Position numbers and translations under genes: made by a program. From a bacterium (lineage in GTDB: Bacteria > CSSED10-310 > JAJRTK01), in contig JAJRTK010000256.1 of NCBI GenBank assembly GCA_024278345.1, forward strand, positions 1 to 23,373: a stretch of 23,373 nt of DNA. Reading direction: 5' to 3'. Positions 3,165-17,239 of the stretch are shown in pieces. Position 1 is the first letter of the stretch; each line of letters starts with the position of its first letter. The notes beneath the pieces were generated by a model that was not told where the DNA came from, ran no database searches, and saw only the letters and a program-made list of their open reading frames with translations.

Positions 3165-3365
3165 GGATCCATTTTGGGCGGGTTGTCGGTCGCTTTCAGG
3201 GCACGGGGTCCGGGGGAAGAGCGTTGATGGGCGGATGGCAGCGGTCGGATGGACGCTGACAGGAGCGGACCTCAACCATCAGAAAAGGTGGACTTTTCCA
3301 GAACCAGCGCCCTCGTGGCGTCCCACGATCCAATCTTTGGTGTGTCCCGCTGACCGTGGATACCC
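3165..3365. repeat. degenerate family C inverted-repeat element
   Basis: The 329-bp gap between the convergent aminotransferase and menE genes has no believable ORF. Its left side reads ATCCA, six bases, GCGGG (3167-3182). Its right side reads the complement, CCCGC, six bases, TGGATACCC (3346-3365). The same ATCCA-N6-GCGGG ends bound the element nested at 16612-16829, and the length (about 200 bp) is similar. I read this as a decayed copy. A short tail matching the hairpin repeat of 1484-1525 follows on the minus strand at 3425-3409. No clear terminator for either convergent gene is visible. Confidence 0.4.
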
Positions 3366-5298: not shown

Positions 5299-6675
5299 TC
5301 ATGGACTGAACCCCAGGCCAGGCCCAGGCGGGACCTCGATGATGGGCCCGCTGGCCGGGATACCCAGGCAGATGTCTCTGGCAAGAAATCCGGCGGTGGC
5401 CAATCCATGAGAGATGGGTTTTGCTAAACGTTGCCGTAGGGCAGGTCCGATTTCGTCCGGCGCAAACCCTTCGCATCGAAAGTCCGAATGGGGTTTCTCC
5501 AGAACCCCCTGGGCCAGGTTTCCAAGGCTTTCGGCTCGGGAGGTGTTGCCAGCGGCCCGGGCCGGGATGCCACCGGCCCAGGCCGGGAGATCACCAGCCC
5601 AGGCAGGGAGATCACCAGCCCAGGCAGGGAGATCACCAGCCCAGGCAGGGAGATCACCAGCCCAGGCAGGGAGATCACCGGCCCAAGCAGGGAGGTTTCG
5701 CCTCGCCTCCCACAGCCCCAACACTGCCTCCCGGAGGCGCTGGAGCCATTCCAGGAGTTGACAGGCATTCCCTGGCTCCGCCACCGCTTCCAGGACAGCC
5801 GCTACGTGGACGGCTCCTGCCCGGCCAACGGCGCCATCCAGGGCCGTCGTGACGATGATCTGAAGTCCTGACGCCCGAGCCAGGCAGCCCAACATGACCG
5901 CCGGGCCCGGGCCTCCAGAGCGCATCGGTTTCAGCACCAGAACGTCAGCTGCCCCAAGCGCCAAAACCCTTTGGAGATCCCGCCAATCCGTCACCGCTTC
6001 GTCTACGCCGATGGAAATACCTGAAGATTGCCGAACCGCGGCAAGGCCCTGAAGATCGTTCGAAGCTACCGGCTGTTCCAGAAGCGCCACTCCCTCTTCC
6101 TGAAACCCTTTTGCCGCCCGTAGTGCCTGGGAAACGGACCAGGCGCCGTTGGCGTCGGTCCGGATCTCTACCCGGCTCCCCACGGCCCGGCGAACTGCCC
6201 GGATTCTTTCCAGATCAGTTTCCGGACAAAACCCCACTTTCAGCTTGAGGCAACGAAATCCCCGCGCAACCTCATCCGCTGCTTCCCGCGCCGCTCCCTC
6301 GGGATCCATTGAAGAAAGAAGCGCATTGGCCCATAACCGGCGAGCGTAGCAGCCACCGCCCAGTACGGAAGCCAGGGGAAGGTTTTGACGCCTGGACAGG
6401 AGATCCAGAAGCGCCTGGTTGAGCGCGTGGCCATCGGCCACCCAAGAACTGGCCACCCCTCCCAAAGGCGCCGACTCACCATAACCGGAAAACCCCGCTT
6501 CATCTTCCAACTCAAGGAGGCGGACCACTCGCTCCCGGAGCATCTGTTTGGATGTCTGGAGCCCAGCCCGGAAGGGCAATCGAAAGGTCCGCCACTGAGC
6601 GCGGATGACGGGCACCACGGATGAATGGCCTGACAGAATCTTGCCATTCCCGATGTCCGACCCTCCTTCTACCAT
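5299..6675 (-). CDS. menC: o-succinylbenzoate synthase with an in-frame repeat insertion
   Basis: Enolase-superfamily dehydratase that converts SHCHC to o-succinylbenzoate in menaquinone synthesis. Visible catalytic set in 458 residues: LKLKVG (Lys144 and Lys146, the KxK base), RTDANG (Asp174), LLEQPV (Glu200), GVDEAV (Asp225) as metal ligands, and VLKPM (Lys249). The usual C-terminal HGLATAGFLARD and PGPGLGF close the barrel. Between AAVLE (about 297) and HGLAT (423) lies roughly 125 residues of insertion where the family has a short loop. It includes six tandem copies of a seven-residue unit, LPAWAGD, encoded by a 21-bp repeat. The repeat stays in frame and all catalytic residues are intact, so the enzyme is probably active. 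The ATG at 6675 overlaps the menA stop by 7 bp, consistent with coupled translation. The upstream ribosome site is weak. Confidence 0.93.
   Translation of the reverse strand: MVEGGSDIGNGKILSGHSSVVPVIRAQWRTFRLPFRAGLQTSKQMLRERVVRLLELEDEAGFSGYGESAPLGGVASSWVADGHALNQALLDLLSRRQNLPLASVLGGGCYARRLWANALLSSMDPEGAAREAADEVARGFRCLKLKVGFCPETDLERIRAVRRAVGSRVEIRTDANGAWSVSQALRAAKGFQEEGVALLEQPVASNDLQGLAAVRQSSGISIGVDEAVTDWRDLQRVLALGAADVLVLKPMRSGGPGPAVMLGCLARASGLQIIVTTALDGAVGRAGAVHVAAVLEAVAEPGNACQLLEWLQRLREAVLGLWEARRNLPAWAGDLPAWAGDLPAWAGDLPAWAGDLPAWAGDLPAWAGGIPARAAGNTSRAESLGNLAQGVLEKPHSDFRCEGFAPDEIGPALRQRLAKPISHGLATAGFLARDICLGIPASGPIIEVPPGPGLGFSP
5564..5689. repeat. 21-bp tandem repeat (six units) inside menC
   Basis: Units begin with GGGA at 5564, 5585, 5606, 5627, 5648 and 5669. 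The middle four units (5585-5668) are identical by eye; the first and last differ at a few bases. Still more diverged units appear on either side, at 5543-5563 and from 5690. The period of 21 bp keeps the reading frame of menC and yields the heptad-length peptide repeat LPAWAGD. Near-identical units point to recent expansion by slippage or unequal recombination. Confidence 0.95.
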
Positions 6676-13277: not shown

Positions 13278-14102
13278 TTATTCACCCCAGATGAGGACGT
13301 AGTTCCGAGAATCCATGGAGGGAATTTCAGCGATGGCCCTCGATCCTGGAATTGTCTCCAGAAGCTCCTCTCGCTTGTACGAACGGAAATCAGGCGGCGC
13401 CAGATCATTGACGGTTAGATACCCCCTTGCCGATTTCAGGAGAACCTTTCTCATGTAGACCTCTTGAATTTCCCTTGGCAGCTCCGAAAACGCATAGTTG
13501 CTGATCACAAGATCCGATTTGGAGCTTTCCAGCTCGTTCATTGTCCTGTACCGCGTGGTCGATGAAAGAACATAGGAATCAAGATATCTTTGTGCCAACA
13601 TAAGAACCGGCTTCAGATCAATGAGCAAATAGGAGCTTGGATTGAAGCGAGCGTTGATCACTCGACACTGGCCACCGTAACCAACACCGATCTCGCAGAT
13701 CTTCAGCCCGTCGAGAGTTCCGAAAAAATTGGTCAGATCCGCGAGCACTTTGACATATCTGAGGGTCGTTGGCGACACCCATCCAATGCCACTGTAATAG
13801 CTAAGAGGCGGACCTCCATACAGGTCGTTCCGCTTAAAAGCCTCCATTTGCCCAAGAAGCTCTGAATTCTTGGCAATTTCCTTTAGATACTCTTCTCCAT
13901 GTTCCTTGGTCACGTGCTCAAGAACGCGCTGGTACACGGGACTGCTTCTAAACTTCTGGAATTTTCTGCAACTCAAGGCAGCCCGCAAACAGAAATCAGG
14001 GAATACGATTCCGTATTGAGTCCGCAACCCCCTCCCCAACGTTCTAATCCGGAGACGGTTCCAGAGAATTTTGGAAAACGCGATAATTTCTCGGGGCTTC
14101 AT
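13278..14102 (-). CDS. putative sugar O-methyltransferase
   Basis: SAM-dependent methyltransferase resembling the putative sugar O-methyltransferase family often found in surface polysaccharide loci. In 274 residues: NDLYGGPPLSYYSGIGWVSPTTLRYVKVL (about 92-120), then the SAM site KICEIGVGYGGQC (134-146), YLLIDLKPVLMLAQRYL, and a conserved-looking SNYAFSELPREIQEVY. No membrane segment or signal peptide is seen. The gene is clearly more A+T-rich than its neighbours and stands alone, without glycan genes around it, which suggests acquisition by transfer. ATG 14102 has GGGAAGG three bases upstream, a short spacing. A 154-bp family A element ends 22 bp upstream and may provide the promoter. The specific acceptor cannot be deduced. 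Confidence 0.8.
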   Translation of the reverse strand: MKPREIIAFSKILWNRLRIRTLGRGLRTQYGIVFPDFCLRAALSCRKFQKFRSSPVYQRVLEHVTKEHGEEYLKEIAKNSELLGQMEAFKRNDLYGGPPLSYYSGIGWVSPTTLRYVKVLADLTNFFGTLDGLKICEIGVGYGGQCRVINARFNPSSYLLIDLKPVLMLAQRYLDSYVLSSTTRYRTMNELESSKSDLVISNYAFSELPREIQEVYMRKVLLKSARGYLTVNDLAPPDFRSYKREELLETIPGSRAIAEIPSMDSRNYVLIWGE

Positions 14103-14124
14103 AAGCCTTCCCTGTGTCTGAGGT

Positions 14125-14278
14125 GGGACCTATCAAATTGTCGTGTTTTTGTTTTACAATTTTCTTCGCCGAAATGGTGGCACCGGCATCTTGCCAGTGT
14201 AGCGCCCTCCGGGCTGCACGGAGCCGGAAAGGAGGCCCGCCCCAGCGGTGATGTTGTCAACCGGATCTGATAGGTCCC
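14125..14278. mobile_element. family A MITE-like element, copy 1
   Basis: A 154-bp non-coding unit with terminal inverted repeats GGGACCTATCA (14125-14135) and TGATAGGTCCC (14268-14278). It is flanked by an 8-bp target duplication with one mismatch: TCTGAGGT at 14117-14124 and TCTAAGGT at 14279-14286. It is near-identical to 15441-15594. An internal hairpin, CACCGGCA-TCT-TGCCAGTG, has one mismatch here. It encodes no transposase, so it would need one in trans. The 8-bp duplication occurs in several IS families (for example ISL3, IS6, IS66, IS1595), so the parent family is not decided. Confidence 0.9.
14132..14159 (-). promoter_or_regulatory. possible outward promoter at the end of the family A element
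   Basis: On the minus strand TTGTAA (14159-14154) and TTTGAT (14137-14132) are 16 bp apart, each matching the sigma-70 consensus at four of six positions. Initiation would fall near the element's edge, about 22 bp before the methyltransferase ATG, just upstream of its GGGAAGG ribosome site. The hexamers are also kept in the second copy at 15441. Geometry is good, sequence match is only fair. Confidence 0.35.
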
Positions 14279-14286
14279 TCTAAGGT

Positions 14287-14400
14287 TGAGAGACGCGGCC
14301 CAAGCCCGCAGCACGAAATCCCCGGACAACCGCCGAACAACGCGAGACGCAGGCAAGACGCAACAGAGCATCGAATTGTCCCGCCATCAGTCGATACCCC
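14287..14400. repeat. half copy of a family C element
   Basis: TCCCCGGACAACCGCCGA at 14319-14336 is identical to 16759-16776 inside the nested family C element. It is followed, as there, by a CGCGAG-CGCA stretch and then by the terminal sequence TTGTCCCGCCATCAGTCGATACCCC form at 14376-14400 (CCCGC, six bases, TCGAT). No matching left end is visible; the family A element and its target site abut it on that side. The rest of the 376-bp gap between the methyltransferase and the YebE-like gene is featureless. Confidence 0.5.
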
Positions 14401-14478
14401 ATCCATACTCACTGCATGACATGAAGATTCACCACGCCAGCAGCTTACCCGCTTGCCACCCGCCGCTCACCACTCCCA

Positions 14479-15174
14479 TCAGTCCCTGCGGATTTGCTCC
14501 GCTTGCTGATCCAAATGCTGGACGAGGTCATCATCCAGATCCAGGGCCGTTGCCAATTGCTCCAGATAGCTTCGCTCTTGGGGATGGTCCAGATCGACGA
14601 CCATTCGCGACATGAGGTAGATTTCAGCCGCCGCTTCGGGAGACTCGGCGGCGGAGGCAATCTCCGCGGGATTGAGCGGCTTTCTGAGCTCCTCCTGGAA
14701 GAGGGCGGCGGCCTCAGATCCCAAACCCATCTTCCCTATGGCCTGATCGATCCTCTGTCGCTCGAAGGCATCGATGTGACCATCTGCTTTTGCCGCGGCG
14801 ATCATGGCTTTCAGCAGTCCGAGGCTTCGTTTCTGCGCTTCCTCGTCGCTCAAATCGCTCATGGGCCTGCCAGGAGGTGGTGCGCTGGCATTTTTGCTTT
14901 GCCAGCTCTGGTAGGCCGTGTACGCCAGGCCGCCCAAAGCAGCCAGGCTCCCGATCTGAACCGCACTGCGTGTGGCCCGGCGTCCGGTGCGAGTGCCGAA
15001 CAACATTGCCAGCGCACCGGCCGCCAGCGCGCCCTTGCCCATTCCGGCAAGCATGGTCTCCCGCTCCGGACCGCTTTTAGGCACCCCCACCGCCTTCTCG
15101 CCCCAGCTCTGCCCCTGCTTGGCCAGGCCTTTGCCGGTCTGAAACAACTGGTTGAATAATCCACGAGCATCCAT
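14479..15174 (-). CDS. YebE-like DUF533/TerB-domain inner membrane protein
   Basis: The 231-residue product matches the layout of DUF533 (YebE) proteins. The amphipathic N-terminus is followed by a glycine/alanine-rich hydrophobic stretch (about 42-60 and 72-90, with MLFGTRTGRRATRSA between). A helical TerB-like domain occupies about 110-231, with LLKAMIAAAKADGHIDAFERQRI and acidic residues that in TerB relatives bind metal. Function of the family is not established; an envelope-stress role is sometimes inferred from other bacteria. ATG 15174 has AAGGGG seven bases upstream and is preferred over an in-frame TTG two codons earlier. It is a single gene between repeat elements. Confidence 0.85.
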   Translation of the reverse strand: MDARGLFNQLFQTGKGLAKQGQSWGEKAVGVPKSGPERETMLAGMGKGALAAGALAMLFGTRTGRRATRSAVQIGSLAALGGLAYTAYQSWQSKNASAPPPGRPMSDLSDEEAQKRSLGLLKAMIAAAKADGHIDAFERQRIDQAIGKMGLGSEAAALFQEELRKPLNPAEIASAAESPEAAAEIYLMSRMVVDLDHPQERSYLEQLATALDLDDDLVQHLDQQAEQIRRD

Positions 15175-15230
15175 CGACAAACCCCTTTATTTGTAGGAAA
15201 CGATCTTGCTGAAGCCCTCGGGAGTCTAAA

Positions 15231-15406
15231 CCCGGATATCTCATCAAGGATCGTCGCGAAGCAGTCTGAGGCGCGTTTCCACCAAGGAGGGAGAGGCGGA
15301 CACCGGAGGCGTAGTCTTGCACTACGTCGAGGATGTCCGACCGACGAAGACGCCGGGGGAGACGATGGATCAGACGCCGCAGCAGATTTTTGATGAGATA
15401 TCCGGG
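15231..15406. mobile_element. family B inverted-repeat element, copy 1
   Basis: A 176-bp non-coding unit with 17-bp perfect terminal inverted repeats: CCCGGATATCTCATCAA (15231-15247) and its complement at 15390-15406. The unit is flanked directly by CTAAA on both sides (15226-15230 and 15407-15411), a 5-bp target duplication. A second copy, with an insertion in it, is at 16578-16976. CC-starting ends and 4-5 bp duplications are reported for IS1380-type elements, but that link is only a suggestion. No transposase is encoded. Confidence 0.85.
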
Positions 15407-15440
15407 CTAAACTATCAGACAGGGAAATGGCACTCCAGAT

Positions 15441-15594
15441 GGGACCTATCAAATTGTCGTGTTTTTGCCTTACAATTTTCTTCGCCGAAACGGTGGCACC
15501 GGCATCTTGCCGGTGTAGCGCCCTCCGGGCTGCACGGAGCCGGGAAGGAGGCCCGCCCCAGCGGTGATGTTGTCAACCGGATCTGATAGGTCCC
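15441..15594. mobile_element. family A MITE-like element, copy 2
   Basis: Second 154-bp copy, same orientation as 14125-14278 and differing at only a few bases. It is flanked by a perfect 8-bp target duplication CTCCAGAT (15433-15440 and 15595-15602). The internal hairpin CACCGGCA-TCT-TGCCGGTG is perfect here. The perfect duplication suggests a later insertion than copy 1. It lies 30 bp from the family B element. The following 15603-15848 contains nothing I recognise. Confidence 0.92.
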
Positions 15595-15848
15595 CTCCAG
15601 ATTGGTCTGCGAGCTTTGGAACGTCGCTCCACGCCCAACCTGGCGAACCCGGCGGGCGGCTCTGGGGCGGCAAATCGATCCCGCTTGACCGTCTGGTCCA
15701 TGCCCATCCTGTCAATGGCGCAGTGGGCTTCCCCCTCTTTCGTTGGAGTACTCTAGCAGAATTTTGGACGAAACTGCATCTTTCCGCACCAGAGTCAAGA
15801 ACCAGCCAGCAGATTGAAACCGGGGGCGGATCGACTGCGGAGGCGTGC

Positions 15849-16439
15849 TTACTGGGCCGCAGCGCTGATCACTTTCACGACCTTCGCTCCCTTTTCTATG
15901 TATTTCATCGCCTCATCAAACGTCCAGCCTTTTTTCTTATGACGAGAAGATTGCCTTTCCATTGCCTTTCGAGTGGACAAAACTTCCCGCTTCAGTTGCT
16001 TCTTGCTGTAAGTCACGCGATTTGTTGGTGTAAACCTGCGCTCCCTCGGGCCGGATTTGCCGCCTATCCACTGTCCCGCTCCAAAGTCAACGCGGAACCC
16101 CGTCTTAAGATTCGTAATGTAGACCGTCTTGGGCAACCAACCTGCGTTGGAGCCCGCATTGTCATGCCCCAGCTTGATGGCACGCAGAGCCCCCAGGCGG
16201 CGGATGCTCAGAACGTCGGTGTCCCAGTGTCCACGTTCAAAGCTATCGCCCACGGGATCAAGCACAACTTTACGAGTCGTGCCCTTTGCCCCAAATAGCT
16301 GGATGAATACATTCGCATCAGTTCCCGCATGACTCGTGTCCGCTGTGTATATCGTGACACGGTAAGGGTCCGCTTCAGCAATTGGCGGGAGTATCGTCGC
16401 CATGACCAACGCTACAATCAGCATTCCTTTGTTATTCAT
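15849..16439 (-). CDS. secreted PLAT/LH2-domain protein
   Basis: A 196-residue protein with a signal peptide: MNNKG, hydrophobic core to about residue 20, then AEA (21-23) as probable signal peptidase I site. It is followed by a PLAT/LH2 beta-sandwich at about 26-115: YRVTIYTADTSHAGTDANVFIQLFG, then RGHWDTDVLSI, LGALRAIKLGHDNAGSNAGWLPKTVYI. These are the signature segments of the domain known from lipoxygenases, polycystins and alpha-toxin, which binds lipids or partner proteins. The C-terminal third is basic and helical (KKQLKREVLSTRKAMERQ) with no enzyme domain. ATG 16439 has AAGGAGG nine bases upstream; the open frame extends to 16475 but the signal peptide sets the start. Exported to periplasm or outside. 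Partner and role unknown. Confidence 0.82.
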   Translation of the reverse strand: MNNKGMLIVALVMATILPPIAEADPYRVTIYTADTSHAGTDANVFIQLFGAKGTTRKVVLDPVGDSFERGHWDTDVLSIRRLGALRAIKLGHDNAGSNAGWLPKTVYITNLKTGFRVDFGAGQWIGGKSGPRERRFTPTNRVTYSKKQLKREVLSTRKAMERQSSRHKKKGWTFDEAMKYIEKGAKVVKVISAAAQ

Positions 16440-16485
16440 GAATCGGCTCCTCCTTCTTTTCGATAGATGATGCAATCTTTTTTAG

Positions 16486-16513: not shown

Positions 16514-16611
16514 GGGGTGATAAATCTCATGACAGGCGGACACACTTGCCTCACTGAGTCCGACCCATGGGTCTTGACCCAGATATCTCATCACGGATCG
16601 TAGAGACGCGG

Positions 16612-16829
16612 GGGGTATCCACGTAAGGCGGGACACTCCAGAAAACAAAAGAGAAACCGCGCAGCGCACAAGAGTGTGGGTCCAGGTAGGGTCACGGCAT
16701 GCCGTGACCCTACCTGGTGGGTGCAGGGCAAAACCCTGCCAGGGGACGGGGGACAGACTCCCCGGACAACCGCCGAGGGTCGCGAGGCGCAAAGGAGTGT
16801 CCAACTGTCCCGCTTTGCGTGGATGCCCC
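16612..16829. mobile_element. family C inverted-repeat element nested in family B copy 2
   Basis: About 218 bp. The left end ATCCACGTAAGGCGGGACA (16617-16635) and the complement of the right end (16806-16824) agree at 17 of 19 positions. The insertion is flanked by GACGCGG and GACGCAG, a probable 7-8 bp target duplication. The interior carries the two-hairpin palindromic module (16682-16739) and the TCCCCGGACAACCGCCGA segment shared with 14319-14336. It has no coding capacity beyond chance ORFs. Confidence 0.72.
16682..16739. repeat. two-hairpin module with a perfect 36-bp palindrome
   Basis: 16682-16717 is a perfect palindrome with 18-base arms and no spacer, starting CCAGGTAGGG and centred on GGCATGCC. 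It is followed by the TGGGT linker and a second stem GCAGGG-CAAAA-CCCTGC (16723-16739). Read on the other strand this is the same order as 130-171: short GCAGGG stem, ACCCACC linker, then a CCAGG-bounded palindrome. The inner arm sequence is entirely different in the two places. Confidence 0.85.
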
Positions 16830-16976
16830 GACGCAGGCAGAGGTGCGTCTCTGGCAAGGACGAGAAGAGGCGGACACCGGAAGCCTAACTGCACTACGTT
16901 GAGGATCCGTCGGAGGATAACGCCGGTGGAGACGATGGATGGGACGCCGCAGCAGGTCGGTGATGAGATATCCGGG

Positions 16977-17239
16977 TTGAGCTGAGACTCATTAACTCCA
17001 GGACTGGCGGGCAGCCACCAGCGCCCGGGGAGCCCCTATGTACGAAGCGATGGGAGCTGGACAACGAGCAGCGCGGAGGGAACGCAACCCGTGTGACATG
17101 CAACCTCAACAAATCGCCAGTTTCCGGTGACCATTTTTACAGATCGCTGGAATCCATGCTAAAGAGGATATCCCGCTCAAACAACCGACTTCGAACCGGA
17201 GGGGCATGCGACCTGCCTCTTGTTTCTGGAGGCAACCGA
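16977..17239. other. intergenic leader region before the DEAD-box helicase
   Basis: 263 bp between the family B element and the helicase ATG. A short open frame in phase with the helicase runs from 17093, but it lacks family signal and a ribosome site. The helicase probably has a leader transcribed from here, as cold-shock helicase genes often do, but I see no convincing promoter or known RNA fold. Together with 16440-16976 this makes an 800-bp gene-free stretch largely occupied by repeat elements. Confidence 0.4.

Follow-up and report, generated by a model that had tools for sequence, protein, structure and literature searches.

The two 154-bp repeats found in the window, the whole analysed stretch of 23,373 nucleotides, belong to a family of about 150 copies in the host genome, which is almost certainly a MITE with 11-bp terminal inverted repeats, moved in trans by a transposase, presumably of the DDE type, and carrying a hairpin of the REP type. 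As a MITE it is ordinary in kind, and the MITE-REP chimera is its notable part. Both window copies are intergenic, with a methyltransferase-like ORF (13278-14102), a DUF533 gene (14479-15180), and a PLAT-domain ORF (15849-16475) as neighbours, and comprise the following features:

14117..14124, unstranded: left 8-bp target duplication of copy 1 (TCTGAGGT)
14125..14278, plus strand: copy 1, 154-bp element of subfamily A, 4 differences from the consensus
14176..14199, plus strand: central GTGG-tagged hairpin core of copy 1, with one stem mismatch (...GCCAGTG)
14279..14286, unstranded: right target duplication of copy 1 (TCTAAGGT)
15433..15440, unstranded: left 8-bp target duplication of copy 2 (CTCCAGAT)
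15441..15594, plus strand: copy 2, 154-bp element of subfamily A, 1 difference from the consensus
15492..15515, plus strand: central GTGG-tagged hairpin core of copy 2 (GGTGGCACCGGCATCTTGCCGGTG), with a perfect 7-bp stem and a 5-nt loop
15595..15602, unstranded: right target duplication of copy 2 (CTCCAGAT)

Direct reading and a script comparison placed 5 mismatches between the two copies, each of which is 154 bp long. The copies start with GGGACCTATCA and finish with TGATAGGTCCC, giving perfect inverted ends of 11 bp that match at 13 of 14 positions if extended. The flanks of copy 1 (TCTGAGGT/TCTAAGGT) agree at 7/8 positions and those of copy 2 (CTCCAGAT/CTCCAGAT) at 8/8, and the direct repeat spanning the copies runs just 4 bases beyond the element. 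The earlier note had described two near-identical copies with 11-bp inverted ends and distinct 8-bp duplications, and an internal hairpin that is perfect in copy 2 and has one mismatch in copy 1; each of these points was confirmed on re-reading. When folded as a single DNA strand, copy 2 reached −35.4 kcal/mol (z −3.7). No ORF able to encode a transposase is located within the 154-bp element, and a comparison of the window with Rfam produced no match.

The spacing of the two copies, only ∼1.3 kb, might suggest a single segmental duplication of a region holding a short repeat. However, the two copies have unlike flanks and separate 8-bp duplications, and the family is scattered over the genome. 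The distinct duplications refute a segmental duplication, to which we assign a negligible probability. Two separate insertions, as had been proposed from the window, find further support in the spread of the family over the genome, the duplication statistics, and a nested insertion.

An identical 8-bp duplication bounds 49 of the 72 full copies with both flanks and a 7/8 match bounds 11 more (60/72 together), with a duplication of 7, 9, or 10 bp found in none of the 72; shuffled flanks gave an expected match of ∼1%, mostly from self-pairs. The boundaries of the element coincide with the duplications in these other copies as well, and the duplicated 8-mers have no strong consensus. At locus L147, a copy of subfamily B (CCGCCCCA/CCGCCCCA) is nested in a copy of subfamily A (GATCACCC/GATCACCC). 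Because the nested copy has its own perfect duplication, the uninterrupted A copies represent the empty site, which is therefore visible within the genome. The marks of a MITE are present in this family, namely a short element lacking a transposase gene, inverted ends at its boundaries, a constant 8-bp duplication, and an empty site. When the empty sites were joined, 9% of the insertion points fell in open frames of ≥300 aa as compared with 68% of random points, so that surviving insertions are biased to intergenic DNA, away from long open frames.

Constant 8-bp duplications in combination with inverted ends imply, as in IS families, a DDE-type enzyme that cuts with an 8-bp stagger, and their presence here points to such an enzyme acting in trans. 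The element would accordingly be a short, non-coding DNA transposon on which a transposase, presumably a DDE enzyme encoded by an IS that shares these ends, would act in trans and cut the target with a stagger of 8 bp. Insertion sites are near-random in sequence and the surviving copies lie mostly between genes; the central GTGG-tagged hairpin, with its 7-bp stem and REP structure, would be spread in the host genome by the MITE.

A search of the host assembly (6.06 Mb, 550 contigs, 87.9% complete) for the exact 11-mer end returned 275 occurrences (157 + 118), with none for the reversed control. The family size of about 150 copies (157 by calibration, using 1.75 exact ends per copy in the stretches read) is a rough estimate because contigs break inside the elements. 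At least two subfamilies, A and B, are present, and the best 40 of the 268 candidate copies have 97–100% identity. No copy of the 154-bp unit was present in 59 other genomes, and in the other seven of the 8 phylum genomes the 11-mer end has 0–2 chance-level matches each, with the element absent. This documents a high-copy MITE in a phylum with little genome sampling (8 genomes in the comparison set). The assembly contigs are broken at repeats of this family, which accounts for part of the fragmentation of the host assembly, and some copies (L074 and L085) contain an insertion of another MITE-like family. The earlier note had also read relative age from the mismatches. For the window pair this reading stands, copy 1 having 4 and copy 2 having 1 difference from the consensus, but it does not extend to a family-wide rule: in subfamily A the Spearman coefficient between duplication match and divergence was −0.23 (p = 0.19), subfamily B showed no trend, and relative age from duplication mismatch is not supported across the family.

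That the element is non-autonomous and depends on an enzyme encoded elsewhere, as previously suggested, is sound given that it contains no transposase ORF, but the enzyme itself was not found. In ∼1.33 Mb of host DNA, pairing of the ends over distances of up to 4 kb revealed no autonomous element; paired ends with duplications delimited elements of 151–162 bp and otherwise only the nested 316-bp pair. Nor was an IS with the same terminal sequence recovered from searches of the host for five transposase families, ISKra4 (NF033572), IS1595 (PF12762), ISL3 (PF01610), IS256 (PF00872), and DDE_Tnp_1 (PF01609). The same MITE could nevertheless descend from a known parent family, either ISKra4-like or another DDE group. 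Several such families typically have GG ends and duplications of 8 bp, and ISKra4-like transposase fragments are present in the genome. These fragments, however, lack ends of their own and have no matching end in their contigs, and the host copies of IS1595 and ISL3 end in GGCTCTATATGCG and in GGCTCTTC-like sequence, respectively, in both cases other than the MITE ends. We consider a parent in one of these families unlikely. An ISAs1-like candidate is represented by fragments, and the end seen does not match; IS256 was absent from the host genome search. The MITE end patterns also had no match in the genome-contig or viral-contig collections. Because contigs break at these repeats, the assembly may lack a parent IS that is present in several copies.

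The consensus sequences of subfamilies A and B show few differences in the first ∼34 bp and are identical both in a 24-bp core and in the last 25 bp, with the arms between the ends and the core nearly unrelated. The core is a hairpin, GGTGGCA-NN-GGC-ATCYT-GCC-NN-TG, consisting of GTGG followed by a 7-bp stem and a 5-nt loop, and compensated stems occur within the family (CACCGGC/GCCGGTG, CAGCGGC/GCCGCTG, and CACAGGC/GCCTGTG). The form GTGG-CACCGGC-ATCTT-GCCGGTG conforms to the published structural rule for GTAG/GTGG REPs, in which GTAG or GTGG lies 0–2 nt 5′ of a hairpin with a stem of 7–20 bp, a loop of 2–5 nt, and mostly G/C basal bases (PMC6006769). The core may be a true REP, captured by the MITE or kept for a function. 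Three loci contain the core in tandem, L045 (35-bp unit, 4.8 copies), L143 (43-bp unit, 4.8 copies), and L082, and all three arrays extend to a contig end.

In a scan of species genomes, the pattern GGTGGCANNGGCATCYTGCCNNTG was found in at least 91 stretches, where base counts would predict ∼1 by chance. By record title, the matches listed include Planctomycetota, Verrucomicrobia, Lentisphaerae, Sumerlaeota, Hydrogenedentota, Omnitrophota, Elusimicrobia, Deltaproteobacteria, Zixiibacteriota, Acidobacteria, and others. Of the 88 listed matches that were read, 83 have complementary bases at the two free stem pairs (expected, 1 in 16), in seven stem types. Stem covariation alone is no proof of selection, as template-directed correction of imperfect palindromes could also yield it. 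Many of the listed matches are followed by a mirror-image hairpin, forming a BIME-like dimer. Among the Planctomycetota cores (L191, L198, L232, L174, and others), a mirror hairpin with the loop GAGAC is often located 10–30 bp away, and the pair, which ends GTGCCACC, resembles a BIME or REPIN. The distribution of the core is patchy, with 3 of 386 genomes positive, the host included, in a mostly distant sample (control, 0). In other genomes across phyla the core is dispersed, and in the host it is seen only within the MITE family, none being found outside it in 0.93 Mb of sampled DNA. A literature search found no paper on the core sequence.

As the core follows the REP rule, the hairpin could itself be what moves, in a pure REP/BIME system driven by a RAYT (HUH tyrosine transposase), with the 154 bp being a larger REP-containing mosaic. 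The host does have one RAYT-like gene (C390), with HVH and YIENNP motifs and profile scores of 30.1 bits for Y1_Tnp and 67 bits for REP_Tyr_transpos, the latter below the 80-bit cut-off. Within its reading frame, however, this gene carries a different GTAG hairpin, in two copies, and not the MITE core. In addition, RAYT/REP movement is not expected to leave terminal inverted repeats and 8-bp duplications, the inserting unit is the whole 154 bp, and the sampled host DNA showed no core outside the family. Taken together, these points make RAYT-driven movement of the hairpin very improbable as compared with a DDE-type MITE that carries it. A search around the RAYT genes of 14 other genomes and one relative found almost no cores. 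With up to 2 mismatches, the core is found at 1 of 30 RAYT-like loci (L259, Sumerlaeota), inside the ORF of the RAYT-like gene, which is suggestive of a RAYT link but not proof.

Other GTAG hairpins were observed at these loci. The one inside the host RAYT gene, GTAG-gggcgggtt-nnn-aacccgccc (L260, positions 1331 and 1424), also lies near the Sumerlaeota RAYT gene (L259, 2785/2813) and is possibly a second cross-phylum REP. An Omnitrophota RAYT-like locus (L271, 950–2309) has ∼20 GTAG-gacaggc-CTCCGT-gcctgtc hairpins on both sides of the gene, often spaced in 38-bp steps.

Returning to the DDE-type MITE, it appears feasible that a cross-phylum hairpin of REP type, with a near-constant ATCYT loop and a covarying stem, was taken up by the element, which now spreads it. 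Given that the core is identical in A and B while the arms have diverged, it would probably have been retained for mobility or a host function, as opposed to being passive cargo. We hold this reading tentatively, with slightly less than even confidence. The chimera provides a natural test of hairpin selection, in that the termini and core are fixed and the remainder diverges.

Bacterial MITEs include NEMIS, RUP, ERIC, Nezha, and MITEAba12. They are likewise short, non-coding, and mostly intergenic, with inverted ends, a target duplication of fixed length, and high copy number; the 154-bp family differs in its conserved central hairpin with unconserved arms, and the searches found no relative or parent IS for it. 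BrickBuilt of Porphyromonas gingivalis is also a MITE located between genes, with an internal 23-bp minisatellite (PMC4596501), and resembles the present family in combining an intergenic MITE with an internal tandem repeat. In contrast to BrickBuilt, most members of the 154-bp family have a single core, with arrays of 31–43-bp units in few (L045, L143, and L082), and the repeat unit is a REP-type hairpin common to other phyla. Like GTAG/GTGG REPs (PMC3733652, PMC6006769), the core has its tag directly 5′ of a hairpin with a 7-bp stem and 5-nt loop, a likeness that extends to high copy number and occurrence in the PVC superphylum; most of the GTAG-20 REP elements of O. terrae carry GTGG (PMC3733652). 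The host hairpin differs from these REPs in that it has been seen solely as part of a MITE, one that has inverted ends and 8-bp duplications.

Several other repeats are found in the window. A second MITE-like element, at 15226-15411 and 16574-16980, has inverted ends CCCGGATATCTCATCA with 176 bp between the ends and a 5-bp CTAAA repeat at 15226/15407. The sampled host DNA contains 19 end pairs of this element, 8 with 5-bp duplications, and the copy at 16574-16980 is enlarged by a further repeat at ∼16614-16827. A third family, of 199–201 bp with ends GGCCTCGGTCATGGTACCGGCC, consists of a chain of small hairpins and has 8–9-bp duplications in some copies. Its copies are found at L119 (8099-8299), L135 (6478-6676), L142 (2873-3072), L065, L074, and L085, with a partial copy in the window at 41-132, and its insertions interrupt members of the 154-bp family as well as an ISL3 transposase gene, the latter with a GTTCAAGCG duplication. 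The fourth repeat, at 3343-3364 and 16614-16827, is of variable length; its ends, which resemble GGTATCCACGCAAAGCGGGACA, had 128 matches in 1.23 Mb of host DNA. Finally, a 21-bp tandem repeat at 5529-5696 encodes DLPAWAG repeats inside a long minus-strand ORF (5299-6675) that is menC-like by eye.
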